Assembly (NCBI GenBank): GCA_021161465.1
Contig: JAGHAM010000039.1
Coordinates: 1-30,835 of the forward strand
From: Candidatus Iainarchaeum sp.
Lineage (GTDB): Archaea > B1Sed10-29 > WALL01 > JAGHAM01
DNA: 30,835 nucleotides
Direction: 5' to 3'
Made by a program: the position numbers and the translations under genes. Position 1 is the first letter of the stretch; each line of letters opens with the position of its first letter. The notes below the pieces were generated by a model. That model made no database searches, was not told where the DNA came from, and saw only the letters and a program-made list of their open reading frames with translations. Below, in pieces: positions 6,039 through 29,000 of the stretch.

Positions 6039-6447
6039 GGCGTTCCTCATAACTGTTGACTCTATCCTAGCTGTCCTGCTGGCAGGGTTGCTCTTGATTT
6101 ATGCAAACAACATGGTAAATTCGATGCAGTCAGATGCCTGGAAGGATAACCACCTACAGAGATATTCCATGGATTTGCTTACTGTTCTGGAGAAAAGCAA
6201 CATGCTTGAAACAGCAGTAACAACCAAGGACTACACTAATGTTAGGACAGCAATCAGCGAAACAGCACCATCTATCTGTATGCTTCTGGAAGTTTGGGAT
6301 TCCAATAATGTGGTCGCTTCAGTGGAGAAGCAGGATTGCGCTCCAACTGGCAGGAGGAGACTCACCACTAGGAGGACATTTATTGCTGTTGGAGATGCTA
6401 CCAAAGTTTACACAGCAAAACTTTATTCCTGGTATAAGGAGGCATGA
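6025..6447 (+). CDS. Small pilin-like protein of the pilus operon
   Basis: This 140-residue protein opens MYGNKAFLITVDSILAVLLAG, a single hydrophobic N-terminal helix preceded by Lys, and has a short extracytoplasmic domain with two Cys (SICM and QDCAP) that could pair. It lacks the Gln/Glu processing motif of its neighbours and shares the pattern KA-aromatic-LIT with the next protein. ATG 6025 was chosen because GGAGGTG (6011-6017) lies seven bases upstream; the open frame extends further upstream but only as non-genic sequence over the previous gene. It overlaps the previous gene by 14 nt and ends one base before the next start. A minor pilin or pilus-assembly component is likely. Confidence 0.65.
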   Translation: MYGNKAFLITVDSILAVLLAGLLLIYANNMVNSMQSDAWKDNHLQRYSMDLLTVLEKSNMLETAVTTKDYTNVRTAISETAPSICMLLEVWDSNNVVASVEKQDCAPTGRRRLTTRRTFIAVGDATKVYTAKLYSWYKEA

Positions 6448-7359: not shown

Positions 7360-9105
7360 ATGCTTGAAACCAAGATAGATAAGTTCGTTAAGATGGCTGA
7401 GAAGGGGCCCGTTACTCTAAAAGATGCCTCCAAAGCTATTAATTGGGATGTTGAGAAGATAGAGGAGGTTTCAAGGTTTCTTAGTTCGGTTGGCACTCTT
7501 GATCTGGTCTATCCCGTAAACTTCTTTTCTGAGCCTTATATCACGGTGAAAAGAAAGGAAGAGGTAAAGCCTGAGGAAATGCCAAACGGAAAAGTACTTG
7601 AGAAGTATCCAGTTAATGTTGACAACGTTGCTGGTTATGTAACTATATATTTCCTAAGGGGGGAAGGCAGACCTTTTTACCATATCTCCCTTCCGAAGGT
7701 CGGGCCTTACACTAAAATTTTCATGAATCATCTGAAGGAGGCCATTGCTGAGAACGTTCCAATCCAGGTTGAGGATATCTCTGACCCTAAAAGGATACTC
7801 ATGCTCAAAGGGAAATTCTATTCAGAAACAAAGAGGGCCATAAAGATGAGCCTTGAAGGTTTATCTGAGAAGGACTATGATGTCCTCGCAGCTACACTCT
7901 TTCATGATATGTTTGGGCTTGGCGATATTGAGGTTTTGATGGGAGACGACTGGCTTGAGGAAGTTGCGATTAACAAAGCAGGGGACCCCATAGTTGTTTA
8001 TCACAGAAAGTATGGGTGGATGAAGACAAATTTGACTATAGACAAAGAGGAGGAGGTTCTAACACTTGCCAGCCAGATTTCAAGGAAGGCAGGCAGGGAA
8101 ATAAACCTAATGAACCCAATAGTAGATGCTTACCTCACAACTGGTGACAGGGTAGCTTCAACAATGTTTCCAATATCTTCAAAAGGCAACACAATAACCA
8201 TAAGGCGTTTTTCAAGGAATCCATGGACGATGATACATTTCATAGACCCAAAAATGGGGACAGTGTCCAAAGAGGTAGCTGCTTTCCTATGGCTTGCAAT
8301 GCAGTATGAGTTGAATATACTGGTTACGGGAGGTACTGCATCAGGCAAGACAAGTATGCTGAACGCAATCTGTAACTTTATTCCGCCACATCATAGGGTT
8401 ATCACTATAGAGGATACAAGGGAGATAAATCTGCCCCTCTACCTAGATTGGAATTGGGTGCCTTTGGTTACAAGGGGTGCAAACCCTGAGGGCAAGGGGG
8501 AAGTATCTATGCTTGACCTGATGGTAGCATCACTTAGGATGAGACCTGATAGAATTATAGTTGGTGAGGTCAGGAGAAGGCGCGAGGCAGAGGCTTTGTT
8601 TGAGGCAATGCACACAGGTCACTCAGTGTACTCAACGATACACGCAGATACTGCCGCACAGGTTATCAGGAGGTTAGTGGAGCCGCCGATAGAAATCCCA
8701 GAAACGGAGCTTGAAGCACTCCATCTTATAGTTACTCAATATAGAGATAGGACGAAAAACAAGAGGAAAAACTTAGAGGTGGCTGAGATAGTACCACGTG
8801 GAGTTGCTGGCTCGAATGCCCAGGCGAACTACATCTATAGATGGAGGGCAAGGACAGATGAGTTTTCTAGGATAGGTGAGCCTACTAGAGTTACTGAGAT
8901 ACTAAACTTACACACAGGAATGACAGTCAGGGAAATAGATGAAGACCTTAGCGATAAGGAGAAAGTGCTTCAGTGGATGCTTGACAACAAGCTCTCTTCA
9001 ATACAGGATGTTGGAAGGGTGTTAAAAGCTTATTACACAAGACCTGATGAGATTGTTGGAGCTGCAGCGAAAGGATTAAAGCCGTCTAGGGTTTTAGGTG
9101 ATTAA
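7360..9105 (+). CDS. Type II/IV secretion system ATPase (pilus assembly, TadA/GspE-like)
   Basis: This 581-residue cytoplasmic hexameric ATPase powers pilus assembly. Residues 1-60 form a small helical, possibly winged-helix, region; an N-terminal domain follows to about 190; the ATPase core runs from about 250 to 480. The core contains Walker A GGTASGKT (324-331), the Asp box TIEDTREI (349-356), Walker B RIIVGEVR (398-405) and the His box MHTGHSVYSTIHADT (417-431), all intact. ATG 7360 has a GGTGGT site just upstream. It overlaps the next gene, a TadC-type platform protein, by 8 nt. Archaeal relatives include the ATPases of adhesive pili and of the archaellum (ArlI). With pilins and two platform proteins around it, a type IV pilus function is the best reading. 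Confidence 0.93.
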   Translation: MLETKIDKFVKMAEKGPVTLKDASKAINWDVEKIEEVSRFLSSVGTLDLVYPVNFFSEPYITVKRKEEVKPEEMPNGKVLEKYPVNVDNVAGYVTIYFLRGEGRPFYHISLPKVGPYTKIFMNHLKEAIAENVPIQVEDISDPKRILMLKGKFYSETKRAIKMSLEGLSEKDYDVLAATLFHDMFGLGDIEVLMGDDWLEEVAINKAGDPIVVYHRKYGWMKTNLTIDKEEEVLTLASQISRKAGREINLMNPIVDAYLTTGDRVASTMFPISSKGNTITIRRFSRNPWTMIHFIDPKMGTVSKEVAAFLWLAMQYELNILVTGGTASGKTSMLNAICNFIPPHHRVITIEDTREINLPLYLDWNWVPLVTRGANPEGKGEVSMLDLMVASLRMRPDRIIVGEVRRRREAEALFEAMHTGHSVYSTIHADTAAQVIRRLVEPPIEIPETELEALHLIVTQYRDRTKNKRKNLEVAEIVPRGVAGSNAQANYIYRWRARTDEFSRIGEPTRVTEILNLHTGMTVREIDEDLSDKEKVLQWMLDNKLSSIQDVGRVLKAYYTRPDEIVGAAAKGLKPSRVLGD

Positions 9106-24229: not shown

Positions 24230-25447
24230 ATGCTGGTCAGAACAGACCTTCACATACATGGGCCATATTCAAGAGGGACTTCTAAACAGCTAAGCATACC
24301 AAACCTTGAGAGATATGCAAGGCTTAAGGGCATTGATGTCCTCGGGACAGGCGATTTCACCCACCCTGGATGGCTGGCCCACCTGAGGGAACACCTTGAA
24401 GAGAGGGATGGGCTCTTGTACACAAAGACCGGCTTCCCGTTTATGCTTACTACGGAAATATCCAGCATTTATTCACAGGATGGAAAAACCAGGAAGATAC
24501 ACCAAGTGGTTTTTGCCCCTGGCTTTGAGGTGGTTGAGCAGATACGGGCTGAGCTTTCTAAGCATGGTCGGCTTGACTACGATGGCCGGCCAATATTTGG
24601 GTTATCTGCCCCTGAGATAGTTGAGATAGTCATGGGTGTGAGCAGAGAGTGTTTCATCTTTCCGGCACACGCATGGACGCCATGGTTCTCTTTGTTTGGC
24701 TCTAACTCTGGTTTTGACAGCATCAAGGACTGCTACCAGGACCAGTTGAAACACATTCATGCTATAGAAACAGGCTTGTCCAGCGACCCACCGATGAACT
24801 GGCGGTTGTCTCAGCTGGATGGGTTTACTCTGGTTTCGTTTTCGGATTCTCATTCCTTCTGGCCATGGAGGATTGGGAGAGAGGCCACAACGCTTGACTG
24901 TGAGCTTTCCTACAAAGGCATAACTGATGCTATTAAAGAAAATAAAGTTGAGTATACTGTTGAAGTTGACCCTGCTTATGGCAAATACCATTGGGATGGG
25001 CACAGGAACTGTGGCATACAGATGTCCCCTAAGGAAGCGTTGAAGCATAACAACATCTGCCCTGTCTGTGGTAAGCCGCTGACCATCGGTGTTCTTCACA
25101 GGGTGGAGGCTCTTGCTGACAGGCCGGAGGGCTTCAAGCCAAAAGGTGCGCGCCCCTTCAAAGAGCTGCTTCCGCTATCTGAGCTTATATCTGCAACGAT
25201 TGGGAAATCCCTTAACTCAAAGGCAGTCTGGGTGGAATTTAACGCGCTGACACGTTCTTCTAACGAGTTTGAGGTTCTCCTGGATATGCCTGAGGAGGAG
25301 CTAAGCAGGAGGACGCGTCCTGAAATTGCAAGCGCGATAATGAAGAACCGCTTTGGGCAGGTGAAAGTCAATCCTGGCTATGATGGTATTTATGGGGAGC
25401 TAGTGCTTGAAACAGCTGGTGTCCAGAAAAAGCTATCTGAGTTTTGA
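24230..25447 (+). CDS. Endonuclease Q-like PHP-domain DNA repair nuclease
   Basis: EndoQ cuts DNA on the 5' side of deaminated bases (uracil, hypoxanthine, xanthine) and abasic sites. The 405-residue protein has a PHP metal site in RTDLHIHGPYS (His8, His10), TGDFTHPGW, FPAHAWTPWFS (His147) and SDSHSFWPWRIG (206-217). A zinc-finger-like segment follows: HRNC (258-261) and CPVCGKPLTIGVLHR (277-291). This arrangement is the EndoQ order (PHP core, Zn finger, then a C-terminal domain). It ends the replication/translation operon, 5 nt after the PAC2 gene. The last nine codons and stop lie in the 37-bp direct repeat 25419-25455. Identity with EndoQ is by motif; activity is not shown. Confidence 0.88.
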   Translation: MLVRTDLHIHGPYSRGTSKQLSIPNLERYARLKGIDVLGTGDFTHPGWLAHLREHLEERDGLLYTKTGFPFMLTTEISSIYSQDGKTRKIHQVVFAPGFEVVEQIRAELSKHGRLDYDGRPIFGLSAPEIVEIVMGVSRECFIFPAHAWTPWFSLFGSNSGFDSIKDCYQDQLKHIHAIETGLSSDPPMNWRLSQLDGFTLVSFSDSHSFWPWRIGREATTLDCELSYKGITDAIKENKVEYTVEVDPAYGKYHWDGHRNCGIQMSPKEALKHNNICPVCGKPLTIGVLHRVEALADRPEGFKPKGARPFKELLPLSELISATIGKSLNSKAVWVEFNALTRSSNEFEVLLDMPEEELSRRTRPEIASAIMKNRFGQVKVNPGYDGIYGELVLETAGVQKKLSEF

Positions 25448-25455
25448 GTTCTTCA
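25419..25455 (+). repeat. 37-bp direct repeat, left copy (end of endoQ)
   Basis: The 37 bases from GTGTCCAG to AGTTCTTCA recur without mismatch at 26559-26595, 1,140 bp away. This copy codes for the last residues and stop codon of the EndoQ-like protein. On the other strand it contains the same bases that end the gene at 26573, so it looks like an ancestral convergent gene overlap that was duplicated. Confidence 0.95.
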
Positions 25456-25649
25456 GCTTCGACCAATTCAACGGCAATGGAATCAACTGCGTTCATTACT
25501 TGCAATTCCTCGACTTCCAGTTCAACACCTTTTGGAGAAACTCCCCTGGATATATTCTCCATTCCTATAACTTTCCTCATCTCTGCCGAAACAGTCTATT
25601 GCGAAGACTACCAAAGAGGCAATCAAAAGAACCCAGCAACTCTTTTCAT
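25433..25649 (-). pseudogene. Possible remnant of a small lipoprotein gene
   Basis: Downstream of the intact lipoprotein, a GAGGGA ribosome-like site and an ATG at 25649 begin MKRVAG, but the frame stops at once. One base's shift opens a hydrophobic stretch (VLLIASLVVFAIDCFG) that looks like a lipoprotein signal with a Cys, then RDEESYRNGE, ending at a stop near 25522. A third frame (ORF from 25580) continues with acidic sequence (VELEVEELQVMNAVDS) into the repeat. This suggests a decayed gene with two frameshifts. Sequencing error or chance open frames are alternatives; the Asp before the Cys is unusual for a lipobox. Confidence 0.3.
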
Positions 25650-25691
25650 GATGTTCCCTCAGCCACTATTTCTCATAAATATCGGATAGAG

Positions 25692-26510
25692 CTACCAAGG
25701 GATTTTTTCAACTTCTTCAATGCAATCCTGGCGGTCTTCTTCGTCTTCTAGGTTAGCGCAGATTGACTTGTCTCTGCGGTAAGTTGCAGCGGTTCTATAA
25801 CAATAGTTTTTGGCGATTCCCGTCTCGCAGAAAGAAAGGTTTCCAGTTATGGCTGCCTCACACCCGTGATCCCTGGCTAAATAATGGCAGTGTTCTTTTT
25901 CACCGTAGTTGAAAGCCACCGCGTTATTGCATTTCCACTCACTGGCCCCTGTTTTCCTACATAATGAGATATCATGATTCCTAACTGCAACGTCTATGAT
26001 GCAATCTATTTGATCGAAATGCTCTAATCCCGAACAGTCTTCTGATGTTTCTGCGACCCAAGAAACCCCGCGCATGCAATAAGGACTGAAGAGGATTTCT
26101 CCGTTAAGGATACCCTCCCCCCATCCATAACACTTGCTGGAATTCTTGGTTATCATGGCTTCTAAAGTCTTGCTCTCTTCTCCCTCTCCAAGCAGGTAAA
26201 GGCAGTAATCGTACATGGGGCCAGACAATTTATTGCAAACTTCTTTATCTTTGGTCCTAACTGCTATACCCATTATACACTCCGTTCTTATCTCCCCTTT
26301 ACAAGCTTCTATGTCCTCGCTTGCGACTGCTTTCTTGCAATAGCCAACGTAGTCCTCCCTTTTTGCATCCCTCGCAACAGCCCTTTCACATAGCTCTATG
26401 CCAGGCCCTGAAATAGAGCTCCCTTCAGAAGAACCTCCGTTTTCTCCCCCAATACATCCAACTAAAACCAAGGAGGATATAAGCATAATCAAGCAAGCGA
26501 CTTCCCTCAT
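25692..26510 (-). CDS. Cysteine-rich repeat lipoprotein
   Basis: The 272-residue protein has a lipoprotein signal peptide with the lipobox LVGC (Cys19), then a Gly/Ser linker (about 20-38), then a domain with 18 Cys residues, an even number that could form nine disulfides. The Cys recur in a helical pattern such as C-I-x2-[IV]-AVR-x2-D-x3-C (CIMGIAVRTKDKEVC; CIIDVAVRNHDISLC) with variants (CYRTAATYRRDKSIC). The repeats may make a disulfide-stapled helical solenoid on the outer face of the membrane. ATG 26510 is preferred over 26525 because GGTGAT stands four bases upstream. A TATA-like box is at 26544-26552 inside the island. No function can be assigned. Confidence 0.75.
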   Translation of the reverse strand: MREVACLIMLISSLVLVGCIGGENGGSSEGSSISGPGIELCERAVARDAKREDYVGYCKKAVASEDIEACKGEIRTECIMGIAVRTKDKEVCNKLSGPMYDYCLYLLGEGEESKTLEAMITKNSSKCYGWGEGILNGEILFSPYCMRGVSWVAETSEDCSGLEHFDQIDCIIDVAVRNHDISLCRKTGASEWKCNNAVAFNYGEKEHCHYLARDHGCEAAITGNLSFCETGIAKNYCYRTAATYRRDKSICANLEDEEDRQDCIEEVEKIPW

Positions 26511-26543
26511 TTTATCACCGCACATGATATTAAATCCTAACAG

Positions 26544-26552
26544 TTTTTAATG
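26544..26552 (-). promoter_or_regulatory. TATA-like box of the lipoprotein gene
   Basis: CATTAAAAA on the minus strand is centred about 38 nt before ATG 26510, leaving a short leader that contains GGTGAT. It lies within the island, just inside the right-hand repeat, so the lipoprotein gene carries its own promoter. Confidence 0.4.
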
Positions 26553-26558
26553 CTTACC

Positions 26559-26595
26559 GTGTCCAGAAAAAGCTATCTGAGTTTTGAGTTCTTCA
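26559..26595 (+). repeat. 37-bp direct repeat, right copy (end of the gene at 26573)
   Basis: Identical to 25419-25455. Read on the minus strand it encodes the last residues (LKNSKLR) and the stop of the unknown basic protein. Beyond the repeat, the two copies show a short, gapped similarity (ACTTTCGCTCAAATTC versus GCTTCGACCAATTC), which may be a decayed extension of the duplication. Confidence 0.95.
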
Positions 26596-27682: not shown

Positions 27683-28984
27683 TCAATCAGATTTAATAAC
27701 TGTTTTGATGAAGGACACCAGTTGGCTTAGGGGGATATTCTTTTCATTGCCGGATGCCATGTCCCTGACTGTCACTTTGCCATTCTCAAGGTCCTTTGGG
27801 CCGATTATAACTACTTTTTTGGCGCCTATTGAGTCCGCATATGCAAACTGCTTGGCAAGCTTCCTGCCCATCAAGTCAGTTTCAGTAGGAATGCCAGCAG
27901 CCCTTAGTTTCTGCGTTATCTCTAAAGCTTTATCCCGCACTTTATCATTGACTGGAGCTACATAGATGAGCTCTTGTGGAGCCTCAGAGAATAATCCCCT
28001 CTCATCCATCAGCTGGATTACTCGCTCGATACCGATGCTCATGCCTGTTGCTGGTGTTGGTCTCCCCCCATATCTCTCTACAAGATTGTCGTACCTGCCA
28101 CCGCCGGCTACGCTCCACTTACCACCTTCGACGGCACCCTCAAATACATTGCCAGTGTAATAGTCAAGTCCTCGCGCCAGGCTCAAGTCAACTATAATTT
28201 TCTTCTCAAACGTTTGTGTAAATCTGACTAATTCAGTTAGTTCCGTGATGCCTCTGGTCATCAGTTCGTTTTTTCCCAAGGGTTTAATCTGTTTTAGGAC
28301 GTCTACTAGCTTGCCATTAAGCTCAGTTGCATCCAGCAATTTCTTGGTTACGTTTGCTTCAAAACCCTTTTCAGCTAATTCTCTCTCAACGCCATCTCTG
28401 CCTATCTTATCCAGCTTATCCAGAGACCTGAAGACATCAACCATCTCTTTTTCCCTGAAGCCGCACAGGAGAGCTAGCCCTTCCAGGAGTTTCCTGTTGT
28501 TTACCCTAACCTTAAAGTCCTTAAAGCCAAGTTCTTCCATGACATCACACACAGCAGCCAGGCACTCAGCATCTGCAAGCGCGCTTTCACTTCCAAAGGT
28601 GTCGATGTCGGCTTGCCAGAATTCCCTGTACCTCCCAGCTCCTGGCCTGTCGTATCTCCAGACCCTACCTAACATCATTCTCTTGAAGGGCTTTGGCAAG
28701 TTTGGGTTTGAAGCCACTACGCGGGCAGTTGGCACTGTCAAATCGAATCTAAGCCCGAGTTCCCTGTCACTCTGGTCTTTAAAGTAGTATAATTCTTTTT
28801 TGATATCTTCTCCACCGCCGCCCTTGCGTGACAAGAGCTCGAAGTATTCAACAGCTGGAGTTTCCATCAGCTGAAATCCATACCTCTTGAATATGGTCCT
28901 GGCTACACCAAACACATACTCTCTCTTGCGCATATCTTCTGGAAGGAAGTCGCGCATTCCCCGAACCGTTTGATAGTTCACCAT
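27683..28984 (-). CDS. hisS: Histidyl-tRNA synthetase
   Basis: HisRS charges tRNA-His. The 433-residue class II synthetase shows motif 1 near FLSRKGG-like sequence (here FELLSRKGGGGE), motif 2 RMMLGRVWRYDRPGAGRYREFWQ split across residues about 102-125, the histidine-specific LARGLDYYTGNVFE, motif 3 GMSIGIERV, and a C-terminal anticodon-binding domain (IYVAPVNDKVRDKALEI...). ATG 28984 was preferred over GTG 28990 because the latter sits inside the Shine-Dalgarno-like AAGGTGG. A TATA-like box lies about 27 nt upstream within a small inverted repeat (29001-29022). Confidence 0.96.
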   Translation of the reverse strand: MVNYQTVRGMRDFLPEDMRKREYVFGVARTIFKRYGFQLMETPAVEYFELLSRKGGGGEDIKKELYYFKDQSDRELGLRFDLTVPTARVVASNPNLPKPFKRMMLGRVWRYDRPGAGRYREFWQADIDTFGSESALADAECLAAVCDVMEELGFKDFKVRVNNRKLLEGLALLCGFREKEMVDVFRSLDKLDKIGRDGVERELAEKGFEANVTKKLLDATELNGKLVDVLKQIKPLGKNELMTRGITELTELVRFTQTFEKKIIVDLSLARGLDYYTGNVFEGAVEGGKWSVAGGGRYDNLVERYGGRPTPATGMSIGIERVIQLMDERGLFSEAPQELIYVAPVNDKVRDKALEITQKLRAAGIPTETDLMGRKLAKQFAYADSIGAKKVVIIGPKDLENGKVTVRDMASGNEKNIPLSQLVSFIKTVIKSD

Positions 28985-29000
28985 ATCCACCTTTTGTTTA

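Follow-up and report, generated by a model that had tools for sequence, protein, structure and literature searches.

In the small, uncultured DPANN-like archaeon Candidatus Iainarchaeum sp. (assembly GCA_021161465.1), a gene for a cysteine-rich lipoprotein lies between two identical 37-bp direct repeats, one at the 3′ end of endoQ, which encodes endonuclease Q, and the other where the coding sequence of a minus-strand gene without family assignment, here called gene X, terminates. The window analysed is the whole of contig JAGHAM010000039.1 (30,835 nucleotides), and coordinates refer to it unless another contig is named. The best reading of the locus, which we hold tentatively, is a recent illegitimate insertion accompanied by a 37-bp duplication of the target site. 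Below, we describe the repeat, the DNA that it encloses and the corresponding locus in relatives, and weigh the alternatives that this evidence brings into play.

Two identical copies of the endoQ 3′ end

The repeat copies (Table 1) are identical at 37 of 37 positions, exactly where the original prediction had placed them, and the match extends to 41 bp if one mismatch is allowed. Chance is ruled out, with 4e-14 pairs of 37-bp matches expected in the window and 4e-11 in the entire genome (976,286 bp in 40 contigs, ~93% complete). A genome-wide search for the 37-mer, as had been proposed, recovers just these two copies when up to three mismatches are allowed. Together with endoQ tails that are unrepeated in relatives, this count rules out a multicopy attachment (att) site or a miniature inverted-repeat transposable element. 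A more extensive but diverged duplication, of which the 37 bp would be part, was likewise rejected; alignments of the flanks score like those of shuffled sequences, and anchored extension gives P values of 0.052 downstream and 1.0 upstream. The 37-mer contains no inverted repeat of at least 8 bp and no dyad symmetry, and its folding z-scores (0.29 and 0.66) show no improvement over shuffles. Viral contigs yielded no match to the 37-mer core, the lipoprotein or gene X.

Both genes terminate within the repeat, as originally described, with the endoQ stop codon at 25445-25447 in the left copy and the gene X stop codon at 26573-26575 in the right copy. The right copy takes in the final codons of gene X, its stop and a further 14 bp past the stop. 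If one copy is removed together with the 1,103-bp spacer, the stop of gene X falls at 25433 and the two genes, both complete, converge with a 15-nt overlap, in full agreement with the predicted collapse.

The left copy encodes the C-terminus of the endoQ product (VQKKLSEF followed by the stop), a PCNA-interacting (PIP) box such as EndoQ C-termini bear (PMC4858679), and similar tails are found in relatives (QKTLSDF, QKTLGEF, QKSLGKF and others). Because it encodes this conserved box, the left copy is judged native to endoQ and a derivation from gene X is ruled out; the right copy is therefore either derived from endoQ or formerly overlapped it. The tail of gene X would ultimately be antisense endoQ sequence under either of the two main models considered below. 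No constraint is common to both copies, as the left encodes the PIP box and the right the gene X tail. Since they are nevertheless identical, the duplication appears recent when set against the split from G001, the closest relative and the only other genome of the same family among those compared, whose endoQ shares 70% identity and provides the yardstick. The copies are too similar for an old event.

Contents of the spacer

The coding content of the spacer is limited to the lipoprotein gene and a gene stump. The lipoprotein has a VGC lipobox and 18 cysteines beyond the lipobox cysteine, and distant relatives with the same paired-cysteine pattern occur in genome G012 (L093) and in an archaeal contig (L054). 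No relatives were found in collections of phages, plasmids and viral contigs, which hold little from this lineage, and searches of Pfam, PHROGs and NCBIfam gave no match for either the lipoprotein or the stump. Upstream of the lipoprotein gene, positions 26526-26558 are A/T-rich, with a guanine-plus-cytosine (GC) content of 0.27, and could hold a promoter.

The stump, at the opposite end of the spacer, is a probable N-terminal portion of an oligonucleotide/oligosaccharide-binding (OB)-fold gene. It shares 54% identity over 24 aa with the Ssb-like gene listed in Table 1, or 48% over 31 aa when residues encoded by the repeat are included. The match reaches 31.2 bits, against 26.9 for the best of 300 shuffles, and the similarity at the DNA level (score 22, against 19 for the best shuffle) extends to sequence immediately 5′ of the start codon. 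The similarity breaks off at the border between the spacer and the left repeat copy, which suggests a real breakpoint there, with the rest of the gene lost beyond the repeat. Profile searches of the insert found no transposase family, and its ends carry no terminal inverted repeats, the best local alignment between them being 5 bp.

The locus in related genomes

In G001, endoQ and hisS are directly convergent and overlap by 15 nt, and the hisS stop is read from the strand opposite the CTA leucine codon in the endoQ PIP box, which reproduces the geometry of the collapsed X/endoQ pair. Judged by this genome, an endoQ end overlapped by a convergent gene is a natural state at the site. Close convergent gene pairs overlap in 32 of 69 cases, as counted in a crude gene set. 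In the comparison with relatives that the original prediction called for, G001 has a single endoQ end, overlapped by hisS, and neither gene X nor the lipoprotein has a match in this 88%-complete genome (E ≤ 0.001). In G012 and G015, which belong to the same order as the source genome, a hydrolase and a Holliday-junction resolvase (Hjc) separate endoQ from the gene X homolog, and this hydrolase–Hjc segment was not found in the source genome. The X homologs (L137 in G012 and L138 in G015) adjoin the Holliday-junction-resolvase-like gene in a cluster on the hisS side. Where endoQ and hisS share a contig in relatives, the interval between them ranges from a 28-nt overlap to more than 4 kb, and is a naturally variable boundary. 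No relative with a readable endoQ tail repeats that tail downstream, and no congeneric genome was found for comparison.

The arrangement in G012 and G015 is the starting point for a rather unlikely alternative, a templated duplication during a rearrangement. In this model the lipoprotein region took the place of an ancestral hydrolase–Hjc segment between endoQ and X, and the 3′ end of gene X received, through repair synthesis, a copy of the final 37-41 bp of endoQ. The right copy would then be derived, and X and endoQ would never have overlapped. Such a copy fits the fact that X does not abut endoQ in either relative, as well as the C-terminal extension of ~50 residues that gene X carries beyond its G012 and G015 homologs and whose last codons are endoQ antisense. 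However, the X frame must by luck have met a stop within the copied sequence, and the likely OB-fold stump stops at the edge of the left repeat, whereas the replacement requires only its own junction.

Proposed insertion with target duplication

The favoured reading is an insertion at an overlap of convergent genes. In the ancestral state, endoQ and gene X would have been convergent with overlapping 3′ ends. A fragment of ~1.1 kb from a presumed source, carrying the lipoprotein gene, probably its own promoter and the 5′ stump of the OB-fold gene, would have entered the 3′ end of endoQ by an illegitimate event independent of any recombinase. A staggered break would have captured the fragment, and both single-stranded ends would have been filled in. 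Because this fill-in would have duplicated 37 bp of the target, endoQ and gene X would each have retained a complete 3′ end. The locus shows what is expected of an illegitimate insertion, namely non-mobile DNA flanked by a direct duplication of its target. Fill-in at staggered breaks is described as a source of duplications in plants and mammalian cells (PMC8355091 and references therein); like the present repeat, they comprise tens of bp of arbitrary sequence and need neither repeats nor a recombinase.

Several observations weigh against this reading. None of the relatives compared has the predicted empty site, a single repeat copy in an overlap between gene X and endoQ. The distance from the endoQ stop to the X stop is ~1.03 kb in G012 and 1.13 kb here, and since the hydrolase and Hjc separate the two genes at this similar distance, the locus could have arisen by replacement instead of insertion. 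Neither the codon usage (37th percentile) nor the GC content of the lipoprotein gene departs from the host pattern, so it is not marked as foreign, and the OB-fold identity of the stump, a short match with moderate support, is probable and not proven. Compared with the known staggered-break products, which are small tandem duplications, the present copies enclose 1.1 kb of DNA, and in DPANN archaea the pathway is hypothetical. Insertion with duplication of the target is still the simplest account, as first proposed, and gains from the likely stump exactly where the spacer meets the left copy. Most probably the locus reflects a genome accident of an ordinary kind, and the earlier suggestion that its mechanism might be new goes beyond what these data show.

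Mobile elements and assembly

The repeat could also mark the remnant of an integrase-mediated element, with the endoQ 3′ end as attB and the repeats as attL and attR, after loss of the integrase and the bulk of the cargo. Archaeal precedent exists in thaumarchaeal integrated mobile genetic elements, which integrate into the 3′ ends of protein genes (PMC6563490) and share with this locus both the direct repeats around the insert and the restoration of an intact target gene end. Compared with these elements, the insert is merely 1.1 kb long with a single cargo gene, the repeat has no dyad, and an integrase is undetected; a search of the 93%-complete genome for PF00589 (tyrosine recombinases) and PF00239 (serine recombinases) gave no match at E ≤ 0.001. 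With no lipoprotein relative in the mobile-element collections, poor as these are in this lineage, and endoQ tails that stand unrepeated in relatives, we consider such a remnant improbable. The originally suggested tiny att-flanked element is weakened by the undetected recombinases, the lack of an inverted repeat in the 37-mer and the plain ends of the insert, while the accompanying statement that no transposase or integrase is present agrees with our searches. Tyrosine recombinases, even of the Xer type, went undetected in the source genome and were present in 14 of 14 control genomes.

Insertion sequence elements and casposons likewise leave inserts flanked by direct repeats of the target, but no transposase was seen in this insert and terminal inverted repeats are missing. 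The usual target duplications of transposons are shorter than 37 bp.

An assembly artefact, whether through a mistaken join or through strain variants collapsed into one at the endoQ–X locus, is highly improbable. The assembly is metagenome-like, and its 40 contigs invite the suspicion. However, several contig pairs have 127-bp ends exactly in common (108 consecutive shared 20-mers), which suggests assembly at k=127; as this far exceeds 37 bp, a 37-bp repeat with copies 1.1 kb apart presents no obvious graph artefact. The locus and both flanks lie within the one 30.8-kb contig, the flanking genes are complete, and relatives keep the endoQ–hisS order. Elsewhere in the window, an inverted repeat of 42 nt (1946-1987 and 6213-6254) is 93% complementary, with 4.2 kb between its arms.

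A second repeat-flanked cassette

Scanning the genome for isolated pairs of direct repeats (at least 16 bp, 150-5,000 bp apart) returned 17. When pairs within genes and the dispersed GGGTGCAACCC family are excluded, two pairs of at least 20 bp are left, the 37-bp pair around the lipoprotein gene and a 23-bp pair on contig C2 (Table 1). The search for further repeat-flanked islands, also proposed at the outset, has produced one additional candidate, a HicBA-like cassette. Its HicA match is barely above the Pfam cut-off, and the HicB part has no Pfam match. The HicB-like/HicA pair adjoins putative AbiE-type genes and ParE/MazE-like genes, and the left repeat copy on C2 sits in an inverted repeat (CCTAGAC...GTCTAGG). 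A dispersed repeat with the core AAAGGGTGCAACCCTTCT has 12 exact copies and a longer form of 45 bp on contigs C5, C12, C16, C20, C25, C30, C34 and C40 of the source genome (G000); it is in places arranged in tandem with 78-bp spacing, and some copies are at contig ends.

Table 1. Features of the endoQ–hisS region and of the second repeat-flanked cassette
Feature	Coordinates	Strand	Remarks
endoQ (endonuclease Q), 405 aa	24230..25447	+	PDB EndoQ chains 5zb8/7k30/7k31, E ~1e-56
Left copy, 37-bp direct repeat	25419..25455		Judged native to endoQ
Spacer/insert, 1,103 bp	25456..26558		GC 0.442, against 0.440 for the genome
Probable N-terminal stump of OB-fold (Ssb-like) gene	25461..25532	-	Resembles Ssb-like gene G000:C40:54749
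Cys-rich lipoprotein gene, 277 aa	25692..26525	-	Likelier start 26510, MREVACLIMLISSLVLVGC
Right copy, 37-bp direct repeat	26559..26595		3′ end of gene X
Gene X, 365 aa	26573..27670	-	No family assignment; in G012 and G015, homologs lie between Hjc and hisS
hisS	27683..28990	-	TIGR00442, E 2.9e-125; in relatives, the conserved gene convergent with endoQ
23-bp direct repeats, G000 contig C2 (L153)	8421-8443 and 8990-9012		Around HicB-like/HicA pair in toxin-antitoxin cluster

Possible implications for gene gain in DPANN archaea

The lipoprotein and HicBA-like cassettes might be two instances of a recurring, recombinase-free process by which the lineage gains cassettes of one or two genes while duplicating 20-40 bp of the target, an idea that we regard as highly improbable at present. 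Two cases make such a process worth testing and do not establish one. The endoQ locus itself offers a readable snapshot of a compact archaeal genome gaining a surface gene at a convergent boundary with neither neighbour broken. If confirmed in relatives, it would represent a datable, recombinase-free gene gain in DPANN archaea, whose relevant repair pathways are poorly known.
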